Assembly: GCA_944324305.1 (NCBI GenBank)
Contig: CALUVV010000002.1
Coordinates: forward strand, 62,001 to 126,000
Origin: Candidatus Gastranaerophilales bacterium
GTDB lineage: Bacteria > Cyanobacteriota > Vampirovibrionia > Gastranaerophilales > Gastranaerophilaceae
Reading direction: 5' to 3'
DNA: 64,000 nucleotides
Shown: one piece after another, positions 4,632 to 51,252 of the stretch
Numbering within the stretch: position 1 is the stretch's first letter
Layout of the letters: every line of letters begins with the position of its first letter
Program-made: the position numbers and the translations under genes
Notes under the pieces: generated by a model
What the model saw: the letters and a program-made list of their open reading frames with translations, nothing else
Databases searched by the model: none
What the model was told of the DNA's origin: nothing

Positions 4632-5303
4632 CTAATACGTCATTTCCCAGTTATCATTCAATATTTTTCCGAAACAGCCGTACCAATTAGCAGAATCATT
4701 ACCGTTACAAGCTGCCTCAAAAATTGTTTCTCTGTCATCTTTACTTAATGGAGCAGATGAACCGTAGTCATCAATTATTCCGTTCTCGTAAACATACACG
4801 GCAAAAATATCTCTGCCGACTATGTTAGGTCCTTTTTGCCCGTTTATATCAAAATCAATACTAAAGAGAATATTAGCAAGCCCGGCAGATTTGTAGGCAT
4901 ATCCCAAAGAAGCACCGCTTGCAAGTGTTACATATCTGTTTAAATTCGTAGAAACTACTGCTCCGTTCATTTTTTTGTATTCGCCTGACATACAAGGGCT
5001 GCTATCAGTTCCGCAATCATTAGCAACTCTAAAATAGTTTTTTATAAATTCACCTATCTTATCATCTGAAACCAGTCCCGCCTCTTTAAGATTAACAGCA
5101 TTTTTATCGGTTTGATATTGAAGTAAAGCTTGTGACATTTCATTATAGAACTTATGCAGCTGGGTGACATAAGTTTTACGCTGATGATTTTGCATCAACG
5201 ATGGAACAGTCATTGCTGAAACAACACCTATAATACCTAAAGTCACCAAAACCTCTGCTAATGTAAAAGCAGAATTACAACTATAATTTTTGAATTTAGT
5301 CAT
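4632..5303 (-). CDS. Type IV pilin-like / pseudopilin prepilin
   Basis: A 223-residue prepilin-like protein. The leader MTKFKNYSCNSA precedes the cleavage/methylation motif FTLAEVLVTLGIIGVVSAM, whose +5 Glu and following hydrophobic helix define class III-type prepilins handled by PilD. The residue before the cleavage site is Ala rather than the usual Gly. A globular domain follows with paired cysteines (NDCGTDSSPC), the family motif D-x-NGQKGPNIVGRD, and the tail DNWEMTY shared with paralogues at 5.7 and 16.1 kb. It has no poly-G tract. It is a single-gene unit with its own promoter and terminator. Whether it builds a pilus, a pseudopilus or a surface adhesin is unknown. Confidence 0.85.
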   Translation of the reverse strand: MTKFKNYSCNSAFTLAEVLVTLGIIGVVSAMTVPSLMQNHQRKTYVTQLHKFYNEMSQALLQYQTDKNAVNLKEAGLVSDDKIGEFIKNYFRVANDCGTDSSPCMSGEYKKMNGAVVSTNLNRYVTLASGASLGYAYKSAGLANILFSIDFDINGQKGPNIVGRDIFAVYVYENGIIDDYGSSAPLSKDDRETIFEAACNGNDSANWYGCFGKILNDNWEMTY

Positions 5304-6430: not shown

Positions 6431-6441
6431 CCCCCCCCCCC
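6431..6441 (-). repeat. Homopolymer tract of 11 G (coding strand)
   Basis: Eleven consecutive C on the plus strand, read as CGG GGG GGG GGG CAG in the extended prepilin frame. At 11 the frame stays open into MKRAFTL; at 10 it would meet TAA a few codons later. Runs of this length are not expected by chance in such AT-rich DNA. Confidence 0.9.
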
Positions 6442-16066: not shown

Positions 16067-16812
16067 TTAGTAATTCATCTCCCAATTATCATTAAGAATT
16101 TGTCCGAAAGGTTTCCAGTTAGCATCAGCTGCATTTCTTTCTTCTTTTGTCAGAGGCAATGAAACAGCATTGTAATTAAAAGTATCAATTGCCCCGCTGC
16201 TGTATACTGCCATATAAAAAGTATCTCTGCCAAGTATATTAGGACCTTTTTGCCCGTTAGTATCGACAAGAATATTCATAACTTTGCTTATTTTTCCGTC
16301 ATTCATATAAATAGGACGTACTGAGGCACCGTTTGCCAGAACAAAAGATGTATAGACGTGACCATCTAAAACATTTCCTTCATCTGTTGAATTTAAGTAT
16401 TTATATGAATCCGCAAAACAAGGAGTTAAAGAGTTTTCACAAGTTTGAACAATTTTGAAGTAATCAGTAATAAACTTTTGGGCTTCCGTATTTGAGTTAA
16501 TGCCTGCTTCGGCAAGATTTAGCGCATTTTTATCGGTCAAATACATCGTTACCGCCTGCTGAACCTCATTATAAACTTTATGTAATTGAGTTACATAAGT
16601 CTTTTTTTGATGATTTTGCATTAAAGAAGGCACTGTCATTGCGGAGACAACACCTATAATTCCAAGTGTTACTAACACTTCTGCCAATGTAAACGCGTGA
16701 GAAGAAGCTAAGAAACGCCCCCCCCCCGAACTGCTGCACAGGTAGATGCCTCAACACAAAAATTGTGAAACTTCTGATGTAATGGCATCTGTTTTGTTTC
16801 TTTCATTTTCAT
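16067..16812 (-). CDS. Phase-variable prepilin-like gene, frame currently broken at a poly-G tract
   Basis: The ATG at 16812 has AAAGGAGCAATT immediately upstream. It opens a leader containing KQMPL, KFHNFCVEASTCAAV and then R-G-G-G from a run of 10 G at 16727-16718. With 10 G the frame ends at TAG three codons later. With 11 or 8 G it continues through RFLASSHA into FTLAEVLVTLGIIGVVSAM and a ~207-residue prepilin body with ILGRD, NGQKGPN and the tail DNWEMNY. The total length is one base short of a multiple of three. The body shows no other disruption, so this looks like a switched-off intact gene rather than a decayed one. A miscounted tract is the main alternative. Confidence 0.8.
16718..16727 (-). 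repeat. Homopolymer tract of 10 G (coding strand)
   Basis: Ten consecutive C on the plus strand. On the coding strand it follows GCAGCAGTTC and precedes CGTTTCTTAG; one more G would restore the prepilin frame. Confidence 0.9.
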
Positions 16813-19941: not shown

Positions 19942-20889
19942 ATGAACATAATTAAACTCGGAATATTGCCCCCCCCCCGAACAGCAACTTTTTGCGGCAG
20001 CAGTACTGAATTCAGAAAAAAATATACACAAAGACTTGAAAATAATCAGCTTTCAGAAACAAGCATTTCAAATTTAAAAGGTTTGGCAAATGCTTTTTCT
20101 CAAGAAGGTCTTACTTATCAAGAGGTTTTAAAGGCTGCCAAATCCAATCCTTTTATACTTTTCCATAAACCTGCAACAATGGAGCATAACATAAGAGAAA
20201 CAGCGGAAAGGTTCAGCCAATACGGGCTTACCTCTGAAAAATATCTTCATTGTGCATTAAACTGTCCTGAACTGTTTTCTATTTCACCGGATACAGTTCA
20301 AAAAAACATAAATGAAACAGTAAAACTGTTTGAAAATTACGGGCTTACTACGGAAAGATATTTGCAAAGCGCACAAAACTCTTCTAATTTATTTACTTCC
20401 AAAGCTCAGACATTAAAGAAAAAAATTTATAAAATTTCTGATACATTAAACATTGCGACGTCTGATATACTAGAAATGCTTGTTAAACAGCCGTCGCAAT
20501 TTGCATGCAGTGAAAAAAATATTGTAAAAAAATACGAAATCTTTAAATATATAGAGGAAAATAAATACTTTGACGCAAATCAGTCTCTGCCGGGAGAAAG
20601 AGAACTGATGCAGTCTGTATTGCGGAAAAAGTTTACAAATTCAGCAGATACCGGCTATATGCAGCTATTAAGAAATAAGATTTCAAACGGATTGAAAAAA
20701 GGGAAAAAATTACCGCACTTTAATCTCGAAAGCAGCTTAATCGATTACATAAGGCAAAATAAGTCAAAAACTATAGACATAACTATAACAGACGGCAAAT
20801 ATGCAAAGGACTTTATAAAATTTGCCTCACGCCTGTCAAGGTACGCAGCAGGAAAAAATATATTTAAAATAGTTATTGCAGCAAAATAG
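19942..20889 (+). CDS. mTERF-like helical repeat protein with a poly-C tract at its start
   Basis: 315 residues from the ATG at 19942, 2 bp after the glycosyltransferase stop and without its own ribosome site. Residues 50-195 hold three to four tandem helical repeats of 39 residues: GLT at 56, 95 and 134; the hinge motif NPFILF, CPELFSIS, SSNLFTSK, PSQFAC at 69, 108, 147 and 184. The pattern (P-x-L-F after a helix, then two helices) recalls mTERF nucleic-acid-binding repeats. The C-terminal ~100 residues are a separate basic domain. The N-terminus carries P-P-P from a 10-base C run and then an F-x-G-like TATFCGSS. Function unknown. Confidence 0.75.
   Translation: MNIIKLGILPPPRTATFCGSSTEFRKKYTQRLENNQLSETSISNLKGLANAFSQEGLTYQEVLKAAKSNPFILFHKPATMEHNIRETAERFSQYGLTSEKYLHCALNCPELFSISPDTVQKNINETVKLFENYGLTTERYLQSAQNSSNLFTSKAQTLKKKIYKISDTLNIATSDILEMLVKQPSQFACSEKNIVKKYEIFKYIEENKYFDANQSLPGERELMQSVLRKKFTNSADTGYMQLLRNKISNGLKKGKKLPHFNLESSLIDYIRQNKSKTIDITITDGKYAKDFIKFASRLSRYAAGKNIFKIVIAAK
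19969..19978 (+). repeat. Homopolymer tract of 10 C in the start region of the repeat protein
   Basis: Codons 10-13 read CCC CCC CCC CGA, in frame. Any slip of one base would truncate the protein early. The tract is flanked by CGAAC on its right, as at 16.7 kb. Confidence 0.9.
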
Positions 20890-24693: not shown

Positions 24694-25489
24694 AATTTTG
24701 TATATTCAAGTTTATCAATACCGGTAATTATATTTTTAAAGCTCACGCTGCCTTCCGGAGCCCAACTAGAATGAACAACTTTGTTTGTTTGAATTTTCAG
24801 AGTGTACGCATCTCTGCCAAACTGGTTAGGAAGCTTTGGCCCGTTAACATCAAAATACAAAGTTGCACAGTCTGTATGTGTAACAGTATTTGGGATATTA
24901 TTACCATTTTCATCTTTAATACACTCACCTGCCGAATTCTGCTTACAATCGGCTGCTGTTCTGATACACGCTGAATTTTGCTTAATGCCAATTATTGTAT
25001 TGTCGGGTAATATAAGTTTCGGATAATTAAAATTATTTACACCATTTTTAGAGGCAAATTTTAGACTGTAGAAAAAACGGTCACAGCCATCTGTATTTTT
25101 ATTTGGACAAACTTTGGCTCCGTTAAAATATTTTGCAAAATTTTTTGCAACCTCTTCACTGCTTTTGGATGTATCAAACAATGAAGTGTTAAAACCAACT
25201 TCTCCATTTTCTATCTGAGCAAGTAAAATTGCATTCTGAATTACAGAATATGCTTTTTTAGTTCTCGTAATCAATTCTTTTTCTTTGTAGTTATTTATCA
25301 AAGAAGGCAGGGTCATTGCGGCAACGACACCGATGATACCCAGAGTTATCAAAACCTCAGCTAATGTAAATGCAGGAGCAGAAGCTGCTAAACTGCCCCC
25401 CCCCCGGCTGCTACGCAGGTAGACACTTCAACACAAGCTTTATGAAACTTATTAAATTTATGTGCCTGTTTTGCGTTTAATCTTTTCAT
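24690..25489 (-). CDS. Phase-variable prepilin-like gene, frame currently broken at a poly-G tract
   Basis: The ATG at 25489 follows AAAGGAGCAATT. The leader contains KQAHKFNKFHKACVEV and STCVAA, then glycines from a run of 10 G at 25405-25396. With 10 G translation stops at TAG two codons after the tract; with 11 or 8 it continues SLAASAPA into FTLAEVLITLGIIGVVAAM and a body of ~220 residues. This body belongs to a different subfamily (LINNYKEKELITRTKKAYS, paired cysteines, FDVNGPKLPNQFGRDAYTL) from the 16.7-kb gene, although the leader is shared. The length is again one base short of a multiple of three. The body is otherwise intact. Confidence 0.8.
25396..25405 (-). repeat. Homopolymer tract of 10 G (coding strand)
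   Basis: Ten C on the plus strand between GTAGCAGCC and CAGTTTAGC (coding strand); 11 would restore the frame. Confidence 0.9.
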
Positions 25490-48276: not shown

Positions 48277-48930
48277 ATGAAAATAACAAACGGTTTCACG
48301 CTTGCAGAAATATTAATAACACTTGGTATTATAGGTGTTGTTGCCGCAATTACTTTACCTTCAATAATATCAAGCTGCAAAAAACAGGTAATAAAAACGG
48401 GATTTAAAAAAGCTTACTCAGTAATCTCACAGGCATATAATCTTGCATTCACGGATCTGGGGTATCCTACAAACTGTCATTACGGGGATTACGGAGAAGG
48501 CCATCAAGGCAGTGAATGTCCTCTCCTCAAAGAAGCTGTTGAAAACAGATTACAAACAGTAAAAATATGTAAAGGTCATATTTTTTCAGATGGCTGCGTT
48601 CCGGAATATACAGATCAAAAATCTTTAGGATTAGGCAGTGGTTGTTACGGAATGACCAGATCTGAACTTGAAAGCCATTCAACAGCTTATGTTTTGTCTG
48701 ACGGTCTGATATTATTTCTATACGGCACCGATACCCCGTCAGGCATTATAGGCTCGCCTGCTTTGATTTATGCGGATGTTAACGGGCGAAAGGGACCTAA
48801 TAAATGGGGACATGATGTATTTGGCTTCAAATTAGTAACTGCAACGTCAGACGTACCCAAAATAGAACCGGGGAGCCATTGCTTTGTTAAAGAACATGGA
48901 GCTTATGATATTGAGGACATTATAAACTGA
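48277..48930 (+). CDS. Type IV pilin-like prepilin (intact, probably regulated)
   Basis: 217 residues with a textbook leader, MKITNG, cleaved before FTLAEILITLGIIGVVAAITL. The body differs from the DNWEMTY subfamily: KKAYSVISQAYNLAF, eight cysteines, and the motif ADVNGRKGPNKWGHDVFGF, which still matches the family's D-x-NG-x-KGPN. No poly-G tract; control appears transcriptional, through the operator-like repeat shared with the divergent XRE regulator. It converges with, and overlaps by 11 bp, the next gene. Confidence 0.87.
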   Translation: MKITNGFTLAEILITLGIIGVVAAITLPSIISSCKKQVIKTGFKKAYSVISQAYNLAFTDLGYPTNCHYGDYGEGHQGSECPLLKEAVENRLQTVKICKGHIFSDGCVPEYTDQKSLGLGSGCYGMTRSELESHSTAYVLSDGLILFLYGTDTPSGIIGSPALIYADVNGRKGPNKWGHDVFGFKLVTATSDVPKIEPGSHCFVKEHGAYDIEDIIN

Positions 48931-50450: not shown

Positions 50451-51226
50451 TTACCATGGATAATCCTTAGATATCTGCCAGCCGTCTTTCATAATTAATG
50501 CAGCACACTGTTTCCCGTCTGTTTTGCATGAACGCAGGTTTGACGATCTTAAATAAGTATCACCTAAAGGCACAAATTTATTGTTTTTTCCTACCCAGAA
50601 AATAAATGCATCCTTACCCCAGATATTTGTTTTTCTGTTGCCGTCCGTATCAATATACACCAATAATTCACCGGCTGAATTTCTTGTGAAAAAATAAGTT
50701 AGTGAATCAGCCATCTCAATCATATAATATTTCTTAGAAAGTGAAGATAAGTTTGTATTGGTTTCTCCCTGAGAGGTATAATAAACCGAATATCCCAAAT
50801 CCCCTAAAGACGCATACTTAGCAGATATTACATTACTCAAATACGGAAGAATATAAGTTTCAACATCATTTATTACTTTGGTGTGCTCTTTATCATTAGC
50901 CTCACTATCTGTTGCCAGACTGTCCCATACGCTTATATCACCATAATCAACCTGTGCACGAATAAATGCCTGTGAAATGGTAGTATAACCTTTTTTCAAA
51001 CGGGAAAGATTTTCTAACCTTTTATGATTTCCTATCACAGCAGGCATCGTCAAAGCCGCAACAACACCTATTATTCCTAAAGTAATCAAGACCTCTGCCA
51101 AGGTAAATGCAGGTTTAGGAGCTACAGAACTGCCCCCCCCCCGACTGCTACGCAGGCAGATACCTCAACACAAAAGTTGTGAAACTTTTCATATAACGGC
51201 ATCTGTTTTGCTTCTGTAGTTTTCAT
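50451..51226 (-). CDS. Phase-variable prepilin-like gene, frame currently broken at a poly-G tract
   Basis: The ATG at 51226 follows GAAAGGAGAAAAT. The leader (KQMPLYEKFHNFCVEV, SACVAV) runs into glycines from 10 G at 51142-51133. At 10 the frame ends at TAG after A-V-L; at 11 or 8 it reads through SSVAPKPA into FTLAEVLITLGIIGVVAALTM and a ~216-residue body with paired cysteines, IDTDGNRKTNIWGKDAFIF and a KDGWQISKDYPW tail. The length is one base short of a multiple of three. The leader is closest to that of the 16.7-kb gene although the bodies differ. No other disruption is visible. Confidence 0.8.
51133..51142 (-). repeat. Homopolymer tract of 10 G (coding strand)
   Basis: Ten C on the plus strand between GTAGCAGTC and CAGTTCTGTAG (coding strand). 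Confidence 0.9.
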
Positions 51227-51252
51227 ATTTTCTCCTTTCGTTATTACATTCT

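Follow-up and report, generated by a model that had tools for sequence, protein, structure and literature searches.

Among surface structures that switch by changes in short repeats, the opa genes of Neisseria form a large family controlled by slipped-strand switching of pentamer repeats and are found in mixed frames. In the same genus, pilS cassettes are recombined into pilE, which is a single expression locus with a G4 upstream. In Campylobacter, glycosyltransferases are among the targets of poly-G/C switching. Campylobacter strains carry 5-81 such loci, with poly-G lengths that are mainly 9 and 10 with some spread (9G 53%, 10G 26%), and ON/OFF states in a larger isolate set were near neutral drift (PMC6321876). 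Sortase-pilus genes of Bifidobacterium carry an N-terminal G tract, are OFF as annotated, and are switched ON by slippage in a subset of the population (PMC9187656).

We analyzed a 64-kb stretch of Candidatus Gastranaerophilales DNA (hereafter the window; 35% GC), which contains a prepilin gene interrupted by a G tract at 51.1 kb (Table 1). The leader of this gene, MKTTEAKQMPLYEKFHNFCVEVSACVAV, ends directly 5' of ten G. On the 3' side, the sequence continues as CAGTTCTGTAG... and then ...PAFTLAEVLITLGIIGVVAALTMP..., and is open as far as the stop at 50451. With ten G, the leader frame reads V-G-G-G-A-V-L-stop, and with 11 or 8 G it continues through the body to give a protein of 258 aa. In the body, the prepilin N-terminal methylation motif scores above the cut-off of NCBIfam TIGR02532 and slightly under that of Pfam N_methyl (PF07963), and the prepilin has a class III signal (short hydrophilic leader, cleavage site, F-T-L-x-E, and hydrophobic helix). 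Its long-leader type was found joined to different bodies elsewhere. A sequence-only reading of the window had placed a minus-strand G10 between a leader with ribosome-binding site and ATG and an intact prepilin body, had predicted that 11 or 8 G would fuse the two, and had seen no other lesion in the gene, and on all these points our analysis agrees with it. As in slipped-strand loci, a long homopolymer thus lies in or near the 5' coding region and other lengths are in frame.

Table 1. Features of the prepilin locus at 51.1 kb and positions of the other long G runs in the window
Feature	Position	Strand	State or basis
G10 tract, TC-G10-CA, C-flanked	51133..51142	-	prepilin OFF at 10, ON at 11 or 8
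Leader ORF from ATG 51226 up to the tract, long-leader type ...FHNFCVEVSACVAV	51143..51226	-	
Ribosome-binding site GAAAGGAG	51232..51239	-	read from sequence
Prepilin body A/FTLAEVLITLGIIGVVAALTMP..., intact until stop	50451..51131	-	sequence and profile match
Second prepilin switch, G10, leader ATG about 25489	25396..25405	-	OFF by one
Third prepilin switch, G10, leader ATG about 16812	16718..16727	-	OFF by one
Prepilin switch with G11, leader ATG 6463	6431..6441	-	in frame, ON state
G10, read as C10 near the start of a plus-strand ORF of ~310 aa (MNIIKLGIL-PPP-...)	19969..19978	-	

The long G runs of the window measure 10, 10, 10, 10, and 11 bases; every one of them lies on the minus strand with C on either side (C...C), and G or C runs of 6-9 were absent from the window. 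A CG10CAGT-like word was observed 5 times against 0.26 expected from shuffles, and the set of long runs is far above chance. The counterpart of the second prepilin switch in the close species G004 is likewise G10 (97.8% over 511 nt). The body of the third occurs in G004 (L350/L351) with an unrelated leader up to the tract, and the G004 locus related to the G11 prepilin has G10. The plus-strand ORF at 19969..19978 is in frame at 10 (default ON). The window also contains prepilins that are tract-free and have ordinary leaders, one at 48277-48930 (+) and one starting near 5267 (-). This kind, which is presumably constitutive, makes up 15 of 100 prepilins in the 854-kb sample described below.

The source genome (G000, 2.2 Mb) contains 540 overlapping G8 words, corresponding to roughly 160-180 tracts; the number of runs of ten G expected from its base composition is ~0.1. 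Tracts were analyzed in a sample of 854 kb (GC 35.7%) consisting of the window and 40 stretches of this genome, chosen towards tract-rich regions. Among the 108 runs of at least 8 G in this sample, 105 were exactly 10, two were 11, and one was 8. C was present on both sides of 107 of them, and the base after the flanking C was A or G in all except two. We found no tracts interrupted by a substitution, including near-matches with one internal mismatch. An AGCT box was located approximately 5-20 bases downstream of the tract in 59/69 sense prepilins, 9/16 antisense prepilins, and 10/23 other cases, over a background of 5%. In some leaders, the tract was immediately preceded on its 5' side by a CTACGCACGTAG-type block, whether the copy was sense or antisense (14 of 15 occurrences). 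Single-strand folding around the tract was no better than that of shuffles, and a hairpin at the tract was rejected on this basis.

The tracts are fully polarized. On the strand with positive GC skew the sample contained 107 G10/G11 runs and no C10, and runs of 5-6 read on the same strand displayed a weak general skew only. This polarity is independent of gene direction, and lagging-strand genes have C10 on the coding strand (16 of the 85 classified prepilins in the sample). In relatives with long contigs, the tract strand changes at few places. In G007:C1 it flips at 277-349 kb, which is the cumulative GC-skew minimum (origin), and terminus-type switches were found in G026:C2 (210-305 kb), G019:C11 (758-964 kb), and G000:C3 (123-163 kb). 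Because the flips occur at the GC-skew origin and at the terminus, the G run lies on the leading strand. The dnaA gene (G000:C1:105055) is away from both the polarity switch and the GC-skew origin in the genus; an origin adjoining dnaA was therefore rejected and GC skew was used to place the origin.

Prepilin-linked tracts follow a strict frame rule. In the sample, 83 of the 86 such tracts (counted as G10 or C10) were G10, OFF, and in need of exactly +1, the exceptions being a G8 (ON), the G11 at position 6431 of the window (ON), and one G10 framed differently. The same +1 is required where the mRNA carries C10, as in the 16 antisense prepilins. Genus-wide, the ON length equals 2 mod 3 in about 210 of 216 prepilin tracts (these sets partly overlap). 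In other species, G9 copies need -1, and are therefore off in the other sense, and G11 copies are in frame. The broad length spread and mixed ON/OFF states of slipped-strand loci were not found, 97% of the tracts being exactly 10 and 83/86 OFF, and the conserved frame offset with a selected downstream ORF is a property of programmed recoding. By contrast, tracts deep in non-prepilin genes are mostly in frame at 10. These genes, named from their sequences without family searches, encode a DPM-type glycosyltransferase, glycogen synthase (glgA), an epimerase, a matrixin-like protease, and membrane proteins; glycosyltransferases, epimerases, and membrane proteins are typical phase-variable classes, and glgA is a housekeeping-type gene with a possible default-ON switch. 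This suggests that the frame encodes a default, with leaders set to OFF and deep tracts to ON.

The prepilin bodies behind the tracts are maintained. All but one of the 85 tract-bearing bodies are at least 191 aa, like tract-free bodies, and the pooled pN/pS was 0.16 across 18 G000-G004 prepilin body pairs, in nearly all of which both members are OFF-frame. Because the bodies are of intact length and under purifying selection, the OFF genes are not pseudogenes. The genome also encodes a prepilin peptidase (PF06750, 2.9e-35, G000:C1:102988) and has 158 prepilin motif matches. In a few prepilin leaders (L069:3343 of G000, L097, and L399), a second, truncated signal is present (FTLAEGATHV...), which looks as if a repeat had been inserted into the FTLAE codons.

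We searched for the YC-G10-CR word in 33 genomes of the genus and found it in 29 (1-125 copies), with 0 copies in G013, G024, G027, and G029; it was absent from 25 genomes of other genera. Over the 33 genomes, YC-Gn-CR lengths were G9 in 49 cases, G10 in 1153, and G11 in 69, a G10 share of 91% compared to 97% in G000. Matching named records were 'Candidatus Gastranaerophilales' MAGs, uncultured MAGs, and 'Fusobacterium sp. CAG:439', and the pattern recurs in MAGs of different projects. Tract-poor species are scattered on the glgA tree, which suggests repeated loss. They can nevertheless be rich in prepilin motif matches (89 in G029, 114 in G022, and 85 in G002), and in G029 and G022 the prepilins that were read begin with short, ordinary leaders that are in frame (MKKxxA/FTLAE). 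The sister species G002 has 26 poly-G runs in 436 kb (L408-L427, L403, L404), which are 7-16 long, have mixed flanks, and lie on both strands. Because these tracts are ordinary, the CG10C regime is arguably not simply the natural poly-G equilibrium of the lineage. One prepilin leader with an in-frame G11 that does not match the YC...CR word was seen in G034, another genus of the family (L400:1719), and the tract habit may be older than the genus. Loss of mismatch repair was rejected as the cause since MutS1 is present in the genus. Carriage by phage was also rejected: the 62 viral-contig matches were single and scattered, and the extended motif was present in only one, a 52% GC contig.

Comparison of close species was used to follow tract length and origin. 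One locus has G10 in one and G11 in the other of G000 and G004 (L048:4436 and L039:433), a difference that would break that ORF. Nearly all G000-G004 tract pairs with >85% identity share length 10, and therefore slippage may be rare. In glycosyltransferase orthologues, tcg-ggc-gga-aag-cag of one species corresponds to tcg-ggg-ggg-ggg-cag in others, and the N-terminal linker of glgA (L195-L224) has an in-frame C10 in many species, in two codon phases, that is gone in others. These two comparisons indicate that the deep copies arose by constant-length substitution and not by insertion. With the thresholds used, we found 33 pairs of near-identical bodies with unrelated leaders and 10 pairs of shared leaders with unrelated bodies, the change falling exactly at the tract in both sets, which shows shuffling of leaders and bodies with breakpoints at the tract. 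Within G000:C3, 2 near-identical regions (L059:11656 and L060:about 9738) part exactly at TC/GG, with the G10 element in one only; L362:18116 of G004 was grouped with this divergence. The L368:9907 region of G004 (-) contains a tandem tract copy, CAATTC-G11-AATCTGATTTAGCAATTC-G10-CAATCTG, that appears to be a recent local duplication at the tract. A putative length polymorphism in one MAG, in two contigs starting at a tract (L255/L307), was rejected as they have an 87-nt repeat in common.

The explanation we consider probable is a default-OFF, slippage-switched prepilin repertoire on a standardized, replication-polarized CG10C cassette. Such a cassette would consist of the CG10C word, usually YC-G10-CR followed by the AGCT box, placed between a leader with promoter, RBS, and ATG and a prepilin body. 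At the resting length of ten G the leader would be one base short, keeping the prepilin OFF by default, and a replication slip of +1 (or -2) would produce 11 (or 8) G and turn it ON in a small fraction of cells. A genome holds well over 100 such genes, of which any one cell would show a small selection that changes. Genes with deep tracts would be framed oppositely, ON at 10, and the tract would also be the joint where leaders and bodies are recombined. The prepilins are OFF at G10. That DNA slippage is the switch is suggested by the G9, G11, and G8 alleles and by one change between species; from the frequency of G11 and G8 we infer that the ON frequency may be a few per cent, and the rarity of in-frame lengths is consistent with a stochastic display of few pilins per cell. 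A process at the DNA level is favoured by the replication polarity and by the fact that C10 genes have the same offset. The proposal of slipped-strand phase variation made from the single gene is supported in part, since it agrees with a poly-G run that switches the frame of a surface-filament subunit whose body is intact and selected, but the single-gene view missed a genus-wide standard with fixed C...C flanks, near-fixed length, and replication-strand polarity. The exact length of 10, the C flanks, and the strand polarity are not accounted for by simple slippage or by the contingency-locus models that we found. We put forward tentatively that CG10C is a dedicated DNA element, in which a replication-strand-specific process would hold the ten G, the C flanks, and the leading-strand position, and which would act as both frame switch and recombination joint to give a combinatorial default-OFF leader-body repertoire of more than 100 pilins per genome.

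The main rival for the switching and display steps is recoding by RNA polymerase or the ribosome, in which the DNA would stay at G10/C10 and slippage of the polymerase (+G) or of the ribosome (-1) would generate a fixed fraction of full-length protein. This process would be expected to leave conserved bodies and, in about 210/216 prepilin loci of several species, a single length and a single frame offset, as observed. C10 mRNAs also need +1, however, and neither a ribosomal slippage site specific to G nor one at rG would fit them. Moreover, replication-strand polarity has no reason under an RNA mechanism, efficient slippage would damage the conserved genes that are in frame at 10, and natural G9 and G11 alleles exist. 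We therefore regard programmed recoding as unlikely. A second rival is that some process tied to replication or to copying (such as recombination specific to one strand, gene conversion among the copies, or a REP-like mobile element) maintains the CG10C word for its own sake, the frame offset of the prepilins being a secondary use or a consequence. This would fit the leading-strand ratio of 107 to 0 whatever the gene direction, with its flips at the GC-skew origin and terminus, and the C flanks of 107/108 tracts. It would also fit the AGCT box near non-prepilin tracts (10/23 vs 5%), the CTACGCACGTAG-type block 5' of sense and antisense tracts alike (14/15), the lack of interrupted copies, the breakpoints at the tract, including the TC/GG divergence in one genome, and the sister species G002, whose tracts are without these properties. 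However, CG10C could not be linked to any transposase, reverse transcriptase, or recombinase; a motif scan of 39% of the genome gave no reverse transcriptase or HUH candidate, and both enzyme types were set aside for that portion, in which one tyrosine recombinase was found. The glycosyltransferase and glgA copies arose by constant-length substitution, single strands fold no better than shuffles, and such a process alone leaves the off-by-one framing of prepilins unexplained. Such separate maintenance of the word is possible but doubtful.

A word of chromosome architecture or DNA uptake, similar to KOPS, Chi, or DUS, would likewise be short, iterated, G-rich, and polarized on the leading strand, and the tract did arise by substitution within coding sequence. 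The KOPS, Chi, and uptake words known so far are not as long or lack strict polarity. This reading is disfavoured and appears quite improbable, because the word has 0 copies in the congeners G013, G024, G027, and G029, clustering at the terminus is not visible, near-matches with one internal mismatch are absent, unlike in words built by point mutation, and the prepilin frame rule is left unexplained. The sequence-only reading had also considered a miscounted homopolymer, in which case the true tract would have 11 G. Homopolymers pose difficulties for sequencing, and reads can degenerate on passing through G tracts (PMC9187656), but exactly 10 is the in-frame length in glgA, the DPM-type glycosyltransferase, the epimerase, and others, and for the first 2 this holds in several genomes. 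A systematic miscount is ruled out, because those genes would be broken by an undercount. In addition, G8, G9, and G11 are resolved at other loci and the pattern recurs in MAGs from different projects, making a sequencing or assembly error extremely improbable.

If the slippage-switched repertoire is right, non-photosynthetic relatives of cyanobacteria that are a common gut lineage would hold a phase-variable repertoire that is among the largest known. Nearly all of it would be kept off by default, and the reading frame itself would encode that default. Annotation pipelines would then call most such genes broken or misplace their starts. Our literature search, of incomplete coverage, did not turn up any account of Gastranaerophilales that deals with phase variation or poly-G tracts, and in the literature we found no description of a link between tract orientation and replication direction for contingency loci. 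This link offers a direct way into the question of how the stability of homopolymers depends on replication.

Among published cases, the pilus switch of Bifidobacterium comes closest, and in scale the Campylobacter phasome does. In B. breve, bbr_0113 and bbr_1889 likewise have G10-G11 near the start of a pilus gene, where a slip by one fuses the ORFs in a gut commensal (PMC9187656). However, the Bifidobacterium switch involves one or two loci per genome, variable lengths, and sortase rather than prepilin pili, lacks fixed C flanks and leader/body shuffling, and replication-strand polarity is not reported for it (PMC9187656). The Campylobacter phasome shares a low-GC genome, long G runs in coding sequences, and frameshift ON/OFF switching (PMC6321876), whereas the Gastranaerophilales genome has ~160-180 loci, 97% of exactly 10 and with 96% of prepilins OFF, and their strand is set by replication. 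Programmed transcriptional slippage in insertion sequences (PMC1088944) resembles our case in its homopolymer, fixed frame offset, and conserved downstream ORF, but the bacterial cases known so far involve A/T runs, and here the run is G or C depending on the gene strand. Compared to Neisseria opa and pilE/pilS, the homopolymer here is at once the frame switch and the leader/body junction. Altogether, the system differs from the Bifidobacterium and Campylobacter cases in how many copies it has, in its uniform tract length, in a default-OFF convention, in replication polarity, and in having the tract as leader/body joint.
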